Source of the DNA: Vibrio sp. 16
GTDB lineage: Bacteria; Pseudomonadota; Gammaproteobacteria; Enterobacterales; Vibrionaceae
DNA: 64,000 nucleotides
Direction: 5' to 3'
Assembly: GCF_963681195.1 (NCBI RefSeq)
Contig: NZ_OY808997.1
Location: 2,480,001 to 2,544,000 of the forward strand
Each line of letters opens with the position of its first letter. Position 1 is the first letter of the stretch. Below, in pieces: positions 26,577 to 62,957 of the stretch. Under the pieces are notes generated by a model that saw only the letters and a program-made list of their open reading frames with translations, was not told where the DNA came from and did not search any database. Position numbers and translations under genes: made by a program.

Positions 26577-27983
26577 GTGTCATCTTCGCTTTGGTTGCAA
26601 TGTCTGCAACAGCTTCAAGAAGAGCTACCAGCAACTGAATTCAGCATGTGGGTTCGTCCGCTACAAGCGGAGCTTAATGACAATACGCTCACCTTGTTTG
26701 CCCCAAACCGCTTTGTCCTCGATTGGGTTCGCGATAAGTACCTCAACAGCATTAATCGACTGCTGCAAGAGTATTGTGGTAATGACATTCCGAGCCTACG
26801 CTTTGAAGTGGGTAGCAGACCTGTTTCTGCACCTAAGCCGACACCGAAACGCACGCCAGCCGATGTTGCTGCAGAGTCGTCGGCACCGGCACAATTGCAA
26901 GCTCGTAAACCGGTTCATAAAACCTGGGATGACGACGCACAAGCCATTGCAGACATTAATCACCGCTCTAACGTCAACCCAAAACACAAGTTTACTAACT
27001 TCGTTGAAGGTAAATCGAACCAGCTCGGTTTAGCGGCAGCGCGTCAGGTGTCGGATAACCCTGGTTCAGCATACAACCCGCTGTTCTTATACGGTGGTAC
27101 TGGCCTAGGTAAAACACACTTGTTGCACGCGGTCGGTAACGCGATTGTGGACAACAAACCGAATGCTAAAGTGGTTTACATGCATTCTGAGCGTTTCGTG
27201 CAAGATATGGTAAAAGCGCTACAGAATAACGCGATCGAAGAGTTCAAACGTTACTATCGCAGTGTTGACGCTCTACTTATCGATGATATTCAATTTTTCG
27301 CCAACAAAGAGCGTTCGCAAGAAGAGTTTTTCCATACCTTCAATGCGTTATTGGAAGGCAATCAACAGATCATCCTCACATCTGACCGTTACCCGAAAGA
27401 GATCAACGGTGTAGAAGATCGTTTAAAATCCCGTTTTGGTTGGGGTCTGACGGTTGCGATCGAGCCACCTGAGCTTGAAACGCGCGTTGCGATCTTGATG
27501 AAAAAAGCGGAAGACCACCAAATCCACCTTGCAGATGAAGTGGCATTCTTCATTGCTAAGCGCCTGCGCTCTAATGTTCGTGAGTTGGAAGGGGCATTGA
27601 ACCGTGTTATCGCCAACGCTAACTTTACTGGTCGTCCTATTACCATCGACTTTGTTCGTGAAGCACTGCGCGACTTGCTTGCTCTGCAAGAGAAGCTAGT
27701 GACCATTGATAACATTCAAAAGACGGTCGCGGAATACTACAAGATTAAAGTGGCGGATCTCCTGTCCAAACGCCGTTCACGTTCGGTGGCTCGTCCGCGT
27801 CAGCTTGCGATGGCATTGGCCAAAGAGCTCACCAACCACAGCTTGCCTGAAATCGGTGATGCGTTTGGTGGTCGTGACCACACGACAGTTTTACATGCTT
27901 GTCGTAAGATTGAGCAGCTTCGCGAAGAGAGCCATGACATCAAAGAAGACTACTCGAATTTGATTCGTACCCTTTCTTCGTAA
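26577..27983 (+). CDS. dnaA: Chromosomal replication initiator DnaA
   Basis: DnaA binds the oriC boxes about 7 kb to the left and melts the origin. Starting at a GTG after GTGGGGG, it has 468 residues: domain I (1-80), a variable Pro/Ala linker to about 125, an AAA+ domain with Walker A GGTGLGKT at 173-180 and Walker [10 protein letters not shown], and the C-terminal DNA-binding domain with [15 protein letters not shown]. First gene of dnaA-dnaN-recF-gyrB. Confidence 0.98.
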
Positions 27984-38451: not shown

Positions 38452-38456
38452 GCAGC

Positions 38457-38580
38457 CATCTTTGGGGAGTAGCTTACTTGATAGATACCACGTTTATCAG
38501 GTTCGTCCGTCAACATAATTGGTGCAAAATCACCATGGCGTTCGAGGCTCATGCACATGAGCTTAGCAAGACCTTAGATA
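38457..38580 (+). ncRNA. Manganese riboswitch (yybP-ykoY family) upstream of mneA
   Basis: The two conserved internal-loop sequences of yybP-ykoY RNAs are present: GGGGAGTAGC at 38464-38473 and GCAAGACCTTAG at 38566-38577, with flanking ATCTT/AGAT bases that can close the first stem. Downstream a perfect-plus-one-wobble stem GGGGTAGGG/CCCTGCCCC (38594-38602 with 38636-38644) ends 12 bases before the mneA start and is a likely expression platform. The family senses Mn2+ and controls Mn exporters, which fits the next gene. Confidence 0.85.
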
Positions 38581-61322: not shown

Positions 61323-61589
61323 TTATTTGATGATGCCGCGAGCGCGAAGAATCGCGGTTTTAAAGTCATCTTCTTGGTCCTTTTTTAGACCCGGAATCAT
61401 TTCATCTTTGGCGCTGTTGCGCATTTTGAGATGGTAGATGAGGACATCATCGGTCAACTCTTCCAGCTTACCTTCGTAGCCCGCTTCTTGAGCCAGTTTT
61501 ACGATCATTTGCAGTAAGTTGAGCTCTTGGTCTTTTTGCCATTCTGGCTCTAGTAGCTCAAGCAGCTCCTCAATGCGATGACATTTCAT
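61323..61589 (-). CDS. yihD: YihD family protein
   Basis: An 89-residue cytoplasmic protein matching E. coli YihD in [18 protein letters not shown] and the [15 protein letters not shown] end. The molecular function is not established. Start 61589 follows GGAGAAAGAAG; an earlier in-frame codon was rejected. In E. coli yihD also sits beside srkA-dsbA; here ccoG is inserted between. Confidence 0.93.
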
Positions 61590-61656
61590 CTTCTTTCTCC
61601 ACAATAATTATAATGATTTGCTGATTAAGGTATCAGATTGGCGTATTTGAGTTAAG

Positions 61657-61685
61657 AAAAAAGCGCAGCCGAAGCCGCGCTTTTT
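61657..61685 (-). terminator. Terminator after the 55-codon ORF
   Basis: A 12-position stem with one mismatch (AAAAAGCGC-A-GC / GC-C-GCGCTTTTT) and a CGAA loop; the minus-strand side ends in a T run. It lies one base after the small ORF stop and marks a transcription unit on the minus strand. Confidence 0.85.
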
Positions 61686-61686
61686 A

Positions 61687-61854
61687 TTAAGCTGCTTTAA
61701 CGATTTTGGTGGGTGTTGAGCTCATGAAGACACTCTTTTCCACTAAAGTCATACCAGGAGCTGATTTCTTTGCCGTTGGAGCAGCCACAAAGCCACTGCG
61801 ACGACGCATCGCACTACGGTTAGTGTGCGAGAACCTGACGGTTGTTGGGCGCAT
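61687..61854 (-). CDS. Unrecognised 55-residue basic small protein
   Basis: An ATG (61852-61854) with AGG eight bases upstream opens a 55-codon frame rich in Arg, Lys, Ser, Thr and Pro. It contains a NRSAMRRRSG basic patch and ends in KIVKAA, with 11 Arg/Lys and 1 Glu as the only acidic residue. No signal or membrane segment. I recognise no family. Support comes from the strong terminator right after the stop and from the structured RNA right before the start. It could be a nucleic-acid-binding small protein or a chance ORF in an RNA gene. Confidence 0.5.
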   Translation of the reverse strand: MRPTTVRFSHTNRSAMRRRSGFVAAPTAKKSAPGMTLVEKSVFMSSTPTKIVKAA

Positions 61855-61870
61855 TTCTTGACCTAACTGT

Positions 61871-61996
61871 CAGGCAATTCCATTGCCAATGTAATGGCCT
61901 GGCCCGCTTTGAGTTGAGCTTCATTACTGAAGGGTGGCTCTCTGGCTTTCGCCAATCCAAACTGCGGGACAGGAATGCTGATATGCGTGCATATCA
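61871..61996 (-). ncRNA. Structured RNA element (unrecognised), leader of the 55-codon ORF
   Basis: Read on the minus strand, 5' to 3': a 6-bp hairpin (61980-61995); a 9-bp helix with a 2-base bulge (61958-61968 with 61903-61911) closing a junction of two hairpins, one UGGC-GAAA-GCCA (61943-61954) and one of 4+4 bp with a GUAA loop (61916-61940); then a 6-bp hairpin GGCAAU-GGA-AUUGCC (61873-61887). GNRA loops appear only when read on this strand. An alternative pairing AGGC/GCCU can replace the last hairpin. This looks like an aptamer plus switch, or a small RNA. No known family matched from memory. Confidence 0.5.
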
Positions 61997-62000
61997 TTGG

Positions 62001-62159
62001 TTAGATTAGCACCAAGACTTTTATTGATCGACAGCTATTCACTACGGCCTTAGTCGTAGGAGAAAGTTTCTGTGAGAGGTGTTGCATCCCTGATACATCG
62101 TGGCAGATTAGTATGTTACTTTAAGCATAGTTAAAGCGAAGATTGCCAAGGAGGAGCGC
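62001..62159. other. Noncoding gap before spo0M
   Basis: About 160 bases with no supported ORF. An inverted repeat CTACG/CGTAG lies at 62042-62059. It must contain the spo0M promoter and probably the start of the minus-strand unit; I could not pick convincing -35/-10 pairs. Confidence 0.5.
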
Positions 62160-62957
62160 ATGTCGTTTTTTAAAAAGACACTGGCGAGTTTTGGAATCGG
62201 TTCAGCGAAAGTTGATTCTGTGTTGCAGCAAGAGGTCCTTTATCCTGGCCAAAAGGCGAATGTGGTGATCCATGTTTATGGTGGCGCGACGGCGCAAGAA
62301 ATCGACAACATAGAGCTCAAACTCTTTTGTCGCTATATCAAAGAAGTGCCTGCGGATCATGATAAGAACAAGCACACGGCAGGACGAATGCGCCGTGTCC
62401 CAGCCAGTTATCAACTCGCCGACTGGAAACTGCCGTACGCTTTTACTCTGCAACCTGGCGAGGAACGGACGTTTGATGTCGAATTAGAGGTGCCATGGAA
62501 CACACCAGTGACGATTGGCGACTCCAAAGTATGGTTAGAGACTGGTCTCGACATTGCGATGGCCAAAGACCCTAGCGATAAAGACATCTTAACAGTACGT
62601 CCTGACCCGCTTTTAGATGGCATCTTTACCGCGTTGGAAGAGCAAGGTCTGCGTATCCGCCAGGTTGAGTGTGAGCAAGTGGATGGGTTTGCGATGCCCT
62701 TTGTTCAGGAGTTTGAATTTGTTCCAACCACGGGGCCATTTCATGGTCGCTGGCGTGAATTGGAAGTGGTCGCGTATCGCAGTGAAGAATCGCTTCAGAT
62801 GTGGTTTGAAATCGATCGCCATCGCGAGGGGGCGAAAGGAATGCTCGCGAGTCTGTTGGGGGTTGGCCAGTTAAAGCGAGAGCTGAAAATCCCATTGCAC
62901 ACCTCCGCTGAAACAGCCGGTGAACTGGTCCTTGAGTACTTAGATAACCACTCTTAA
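62160..62957 (+). CDS. Spo0M-like arrestin-fold protein
   Basis: A 265-residue protein of the sporulation-control Spo0M family (arrestin-like beta-sandwich), beginning MSFFKKTLASFGIGSAKVDSVL and containing VYGGATAQEIDNIELKLFCRY, YAFTLQPGEERTFDVELEVPWNTP and a C-terminal RELKIPL region. This organism type does not sporulate; the role in gammaproteobacteria is unknown. The ribosome site AAGGAGGAG is very strong. Confidence 0.92.
   Translation: MSFFKKTLASFGIGSAKVDSVLQQEVLYPGQKANVVIHVYGGATAQEIDNIELKLFCRYIKEVPADHDKNKHTAGRMRRVPASYQLADWKLPYAFTLQPGEERTFDVELEVPWNTPVTIGDSKVWLETGLDIAMAKDPSDKDILTVRPDPLLDGIFTALEEQGLRIRQVECEQVDGFAMPFVQEFEFVPTTGPFHGRWRELEVVAYRSEESLQMWFEIDRHREGAKGMLASLLGVGQLKRELKIPLHTSAETAGELVLEYLDNHS

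Follow-up and report, generated by a model that had tools for sequence, protein, structure and literature searches.

In E. coli, CsrA opens a hairpin that sequesters the Shine-Dalgarno sequence of ymdA and also acts on the moaA leader, according to the accessible text of one study (PMC7652899), and the accessible part of another report describes activation of hmsE by CsrA via an upstream GGA (PMC10294631). The locus analysed here, located in a stretch of 64,000 nucleotides from Vibrio sp. 16 (hereafter, the window), resembles the leader of the CsrA-activated ymdA in having its ribosome site sequestered by a hairpin, the opening of which we propose to involve two GGA sites, one of them immediately upstream. 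It departs from ymdA, as far as the accessible text portrays that leader, in that the ribosome site is not overlapped by any GGA, codons 6-8 supply the sequestering strand, and one GGA is carried by a covarying three-way junction, with CsrA being a candidate (PMC7652899). With the E. coli moaA leader, for which the same text describes a Moco aptamer together with CsrA, it shares a folded structure and GGA sites thought to govern ribosome access, whereas our locus matched the Moco family neither in sequence nor in Rfam, and its gene encodes an uncharacterised small protein (PMC7652899).

As a transcription unit, the locus recalls VcdRP of V. cholerae, a dual-function RNA encoding a 29-residue protein, since it is likewise a Vibrio-wide short unit with its own (here putative) promoter, a small ORF and a terminator (PMC8672173). 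However, in the part of that report available, VcdRP maps to the vc2278-vc2279 locus and its conserved base-pairing cytosines lie 3' of the ORF, whereas the folded leader described here is placed 5' (PMC8672173); the different locus ruled out identity with VcdRP. Identity with the Vibrio RNA srvg23535, which lies between rctB and a hypothetical gene, was ruled out as well. A parallel in kind is provided by the orphan structured-leader motifs obtained by comparative genomics, where a covarying leader is also tied to one uncharacterised gene; compared with those in the accessible text, the present unit differs in being confined to Vibrionaceae, as far as searched, and in having a coding-region pairing as its most conserved feature (PMC2864571). 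Our searches of open-access text found no account of the yihD-spo0M intergenic locus. The locus is a real, uncatalogued and conserved leader-plus-small-protein unit of Vibrionaceae, and its novelty is that of a further family of a known kind, the structured cis-regulatory leaders.

The unit is compact and occupies the minus strand between spo0M and yihD, comprising a promoter-like site, a 5' hairpin, a folded leader, a 55-codon ORF and a terminator (Table 1). Upstream, TGNTANNCT was found by script in 97 of 104 loci, and a TCGANN element preceded the hexamer by 17 nt in 73 of the 97 and by 13 nt in 18, with none in 6 (the spacing script took the last TCGA). The stem of the 5' hairpin is kept in most of the 97 aligned leaders, with some pair changes; by a strict script, the 5-bp stem is perfect in 80 of 97 loci. 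At the other end, the TAA of the ORF is followed by one T and then by the A-rich 5' side of the terminator stem, exactly the arrangement (a basic 55-codon ORF with a terminator one base past its stop) that the initial annotation had described. A stem plus T run was located by script no more than 110 nt past the stop codon in 99 of 104 loci, the stem starting a median of 2 nt past it. The promoter-like site was not listed by a generic sigma-70 scan, nor was the terminator listed by a generic terminator scan.

Table 1 Features of the spo0M-yihD intergenic unit and its neighbours, in window coordinates.
Feature	Position	Strand	Basis
spo0M	62160-62957	+	Pfam Spo0M match
Promoter-like site: TCGATC, 17 nt, extended -10 TGCTAATCT	62003..62031	-	comparative
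5' hairpin GATATG-CACG-CATATC, at inferred transcript start	61980..61995	-	comparative
Three-way junction P1-P2-P3, closed by P1 (61962-61973 with 61898-61909)	61898..61973	-	fold and covariation
J1/2 junction segment carrying GGA	61952..61961	-	comparative
P2 hairpin TGGC-GAAA-GCCA	61943..61954	-	comparative
P3 stem, length variable	61911..61940	-	comparative
P4 hairpin, ANGGA loop	61873..61887	-	comparative
H5 5' arm GCCUGAC, sharing GCC with P4	61869..61875	-	pairs with codons 6-8
Ribosome-binding site GUUAGG	61862..61867	-	sequence
55-codon ORF, ATG start, Arg-rich protein MRPTTVRFSHTNRSAMRRRSGF...KAA	61687..61854	-	open frame
H5 3' arm GUCAGGU, within codons 6-8	61833..61839	-	complementarity
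Intrinsic terminator; stem 61660-61683, then T run	61656..61685	-	sequence
yihD	start near 61595	-	Pfam DUF1040 match

The distribution of the unit was determined in a sample of 118 genomes of the genus Vibrio, evenly drawn from a larger group, and the combination of blastn, an RNA model and a protein profile revealed a homologous ORF at the locus in 116 of them. By blastn, the intergenic stretch was recovered from 105 genomes and the homologous ORF was encoded in all 105 loci; within the flanks covered, yihD was present in 103 and spo0M in 99, and the order spo0M-ORF-yihD-ccoG was complete in 94. Of the 13 genomes missed by blastn, 4 were recovered by the RNA model, with the ORF adjoining yihD (G013, G068, G102 and G111), and 7 by the protein profile (G014, G015, G041, G066, G070, G075 and G079), the ORF adjoining spo0M in all 7 and yihD in 6. 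The two genomes without a match were G026 (1.0 Mb) and G064 (73% complete), and the small gene is absent from both G026 and G267, Vibrio-genus genomes of 1.0-1.1 Mb. Family-wide, the RNA search gave matches at E <= 1 in 228 of 296 genomes and in 8 of 13 genera, weak ones counted; among 38 further loci inspected, 33 adjoined yihD, including most of the weak matches, and the homologous ORF was also present in Aliivibrio (g11 genomes) and Photobacterium (g8). The genome of origin contained no second significant match to the RNA motif (next E 0.149), and beyond Vibrionaceae no convincing match to it was obtained in 394 genomes of the order and 368-369 of the class. Weak R1 matches did arise there, with E 0.002-0.007 in 3 of the 394 order genomes and with E from 2e-4 to 0.003 in 4 of 368 others of the class, a number close to chance expectation at E <= 0.01 per genome; they were set aside. 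The unit would bring to almost all of the sampled Vibrio, Aliivibrio and Photobacterium genomes a regulatory RNA not yet catalogued and a small-protein family not yet named.

Neither the leader nor its product could be placed in a known RNA or protein family by the initial annotation, and the database searches agreed with it. Among 4,227 Rfam models, nothing reached the gathering threshold on the leader stretch (best sub-threshold match over 61400-62300, E 0.13), no Pfam or NCBIfam profile matched the 55-residue protein at E <= 1, and no relative of it was found among PDB sequences. Its 111 homologues at E <= 0.01, where named, are entered as 'hypothetical protein' of Vibrio or Photobacterium. 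The frame is nevertheless conserved and under purifying selection, as had been looked for, with a median dN/dS of 0.22 (1,637 usable pairs of 3,655); the corresponding medians were 0.06 in codons 13-22 and 0.31 in codons 23-55 (usable pairs). The N-terminal half is Arg-rich and strongly basic, with a nearly invariant Arg pair, and the C-terminal half is variable, ending in KAA in most cases; the predicted structure is of low confidence and shows two short helices (mean pLDDT 68.5, pTM 0.21). From its charge, an RNA- or ribosome-binding role might be guessed. Length is exactly 55 codons in 86 of the 105 ORFs counted. Naturally short versions occur in L098, L099 (both cut to 29-30 codons), L104 and L105, and the V. 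halioticoli clade (L113, L114, L116, L173 and L181) encodes a protein of 37-38 residues. Frameshifts in close relatives, which the initial annotation had named as evidence against the ORF, are missing from most loci; frameshift-like truncations were seen in 2 of 104, L037 and L049 (48 and 38 codons), where assembly errors are possible. Two other frames were discarded: a 44-codon upstream frame (61863-61997, minus strand), open in the window, is not regarded as coding, since leader length changes across species are not multiples of three, and the mini-ORF ATG-GAT-ATG-CCT-GAC-AGT-TAG, common as it is, lacks its start or stop in several lineages and is not the conserved feature.

The folding of the leader agreed with what had been drawn from the window, as the bulged 9-bp helix (CCUGuCCCGC/GCGGGccAGG), the GAAA-capped P2 and the GUAA-capped P3 were all present in the minimum-energy fold. 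The junction reached -27.3 kcal/mol (z -2.5; a level attained by 1 of 200 shuffles) and the excess of the whole leader was modest (143 nt, z -1.9, 12 of 200 shuffles as good; 404 nt, z -2.85), so the case rests on conservation and covariation and not on energy. Fifty-six leaders were aligned with MAFFT, structure not being used, and compared to 500 shuffles. For P1-P4 together, 93.3% of cells were paired and double changes affected 16 of 28 pairs, amounting to 124 cells versus 32.8 in shuffles; no shuffle reached any of five measures, and pairing fell to 26-44% when the partner was slid along. Taken separately, P1 was paired in 92.4% of cells, with double changes in 8 of 12 pairs, P2 in 96.4%, with one such pair, and P3 in 93.1% (outer) and 86.9% (inner), with double changes in 6 of 8 pairs. 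As shuffles ignore kinship, a tree-aware test was written, in which parsimony substitutions were re-placed on the tree and an APC-corrected G statistic was computed (60 simulations). Of 11,175 column pairs, the seven that scored highest all fell in P1, which thus yielded the compensatory changes that had been sought; over all pairs, two P1 pairs had E < 0.05 and a third E 0.27, and P2, P3, P4 and H5 stayed below significance in this test, being conserved rather than variable. Within P1, the basal three pairs are near-constant (C-G in 56, C-G in 56, and U-A in 53 plus U-G in 3 of 56) and the other nine vary. The GNRA loops, put forward by the initial annotation as a tell-tale, are present in the window but not conserved (P2 loops in other loci include ACUA, AGCU and UUAC); what is conserved is the two GGA motifs and the pairing of the leader with the codons. 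The loci of the V. halioticoli clade cited above (V. ezurae, comitans, halioticoli, inusitatus, superstes and breoganii) have lost the P1-P3 junction and kept the 5' hairpin, the ANGGA hairpin and the H5 sequence.

Two unpaired runs located 5' of the ribosome site, the GGA of J1/2 and the A-N-GGA of the P4 loop, were invariant in the 56 leaders, the former being unchanged in 56 of 56. ANGGA was found in all 104 loci, those without the junction included, and TNGGANNGG in 96 of 104, being absent from L104 and L105. Predicted folds left the junction GGA unpaired in all 4 Aliivibrio leaders folded and in 4 of 7 Photobacterium leaders, in which the helices have diverged; in the other 3 it was not freed. 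Both GGA features typical of CsrA-regulated leaders, a GGA in a hairpin loop and a second GGA site, are therefore present. ANGGA could also be a standby site, its GGA resembling the ribosome-binding core. The P4 stem was paired in 99.6% of cells (alignment A1) and is thermodynamically weak, with a probability above 0.5 in just 2 of 56 leaders.

The alternative pairing near the ribosome site suspected by the initial annotation was also borne out: GCCUGAC and GUCAGGU (H5) enclose the ribosome site and the AUG in a hairpin of -12.4 kcal/mol (z -2.7; a level attained by 2 of 200 shuffles). H5 was paired in 99.0% of cells, or 97.9% together with the inner helix, in which the ribosome site pairs with codons 2-4 (96.4% of cells), and its probability exceeded 0.5 in 39 of 56 leaders. 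It is more conserved than covarying: double changes affect 3 of its pairs, in 4 cells altogether; only one further pair-type count was clearly above shuffles, and its number of pair types was reached by 10 of 500. The conservation extends to codon choice, as codon 6 (Val-6) is GTC in 102 of 104 loci and codon 7 (Arg-7) is AGG in 101, AGA in 2 and AGT (Ser) in 1. AGG is used for none of the 552 remaining Arg codons of the small ORFs and for 6 of 680 in 29 long ORFs of the window, so its near-fixation at codon 7 is a choice for which selection on the protein offers no explanation; if true, this constraint would be a clean case of a coding sequence acting as part of its own translational switch. 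H5 formed in all 3 Aliivibrio leaders folded (of 11 retrieved); the helix inside it, which covers the initiation region, was a different one there. The minimum-energy folds of 16 more distant loci contained H5 in 8 (L110, L113, L156, L160, L163, L166, L173 and L174) and lacked it in 8 (L112, L114, L116, L168, L170, L177, L181 and L183). The clade L208-L216 has a reduced leader and a short ORF (MRPVPVRA...); the H5 sequence was absent from the 4 leaders folded, and 3 of the 4 counted had two GGA motifs no farther than 75 nt from the start codon. In L098 and L099, AGG is replaced by AGA and the P4 stem GGC/GCC by GAC/GUC, P4 and not H5 being the predicted fold of L098. A compensatory H5 change noted by eye in L098, L112 and L168 was dropped, as these fold without H5, and so was a short-range CCUGA/UUAGG hairpin covering the ribosome site, for which most rows have the complementarity but only 2 of 56 reach a probability above 0.5.

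Comparison of the loci shows the promoter-like site, P1-P3, P4, the H5 complementarity, the ORF and the terminator to be conserved, and the compensatory changes plus the selected frame favour the earlier proposal of a regulatory leader for a new small protein. On balance, we read the locus as a self-contained gene for an Arg-rich protein of about 55 residues, translation of which would be set by its folded 5' leader, with CsrA as the likeliest effector. That control is translational and operates through leader structure seems likely. In the resting state, H5 would close off the ribosome site and the AUG, together with the helix that the ribosome site forms with codons 2-4 inside it. An RNA-binding protein, most likely CsrA, may then bind the P4 GGA together with the junction GGA and stabilise P4; since GCC belongs to both P4 and H5, only one of the two can form at a time, so H5 would open and ribosomes could enter. 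The weakness of P4 alone (2 of 56 leaders, versus 39 for H5) fits a site that can prevail only with the help of a protein. CsrA was considered first because CsrA targets likewise combine a hairpin-loop GGA with another site, an analogy on which its role as effector can be proposed tentatively, at somewhat less than even chances; should CsrA act here, activation would be fairly likely, rather than repression, and the small protein would come under a regulator that globally governs carbon use and lifestyle in these bacteria. A search of part of the text of a V. cholerae CsrA study found no mention of VC0037 or VC0038. It is rather doubtful that the locus represents a new class of switching leader, in which CCUGA/UCAGG would be exchanged among the P1 base, the ANGGA hairpin and codons 6-8, a GGA-binding protein or ligand would decide synthesis, and the rare AGG would be kept for the switch.

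Other explanations account for part of these data. A small-molecule or ion riboswitch, with P1-P3 as aptamer and a ligand fixing P1, is possible and less supported than CsrA: the CAGGC of the P1 3' strand would otherwise pair with the GCCUG of H5/P4, a complementarity found in nearly all 56 rows, and the ligand would in this way switch the ribosome site. The three-way junction and its strong covariation suit this explanation, as do the near-constant basal P1 pairs, expected if those bases also pair elsewhere, but few unpaired positions other than GGA are conserved, the junction is lost in the V. halioticoli clade and in L208-L216 with the gene retained, and the motif occurs once per genome, before a single gene and not before several related ones, which makes a riboswitch unlikely. 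We find it similarly improbable that the Arg-rich protein regulates itself in the manner of ribosomal proteins, by attaching to its own leader to block or permit translation. The basic N-terminal half with its Arg pair and the joint inheritance of leader and gene at one locus would agree with such autogenous control, but the protein resembles no known RNA-binding family and its predicted two short helices are of low confidence (pTM 0.21).

A leader without a dedicated effector, either a constitutively structured mRNA or a standby or thermosensor leader, would explain both the likeness of ANGGA to the ribosome-binding core and the closure of the initiation region by H5. No known thermometer family was matched in Rfam, however, and melting alone leaves the junction GGA and the P1 covariation unexplained, so we give this explanation little credence. 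Least probable by far is that the ORF is a leader peptide whose translation governs a terminator ahead of yihD. The stem does start a median of 2 nt past the stop codon and in 103 of 105 loci yihD comes next, in the same orientation, but the ORF persists where yihD was not detected (L077, L098 and L216, with limited flanks), the protein sequence is conserved in its own right (dN/dS 0.06 in codons 13-22), and the distance from the terminator to yihD leaves room for a separate promoter in many loci, a promoter-like site being present there in this window. Elsewhere in the window, Rfam matched a manganese (yybP-ykoY) riboswitch, RF00080, at 38452-38564 on the plus strand (45.8 bits, threshold 45), and the dnaA antisense RNA AsdA, RF02674, at 27090-27170 on the minus strand (53.9 bits, threshold 52).
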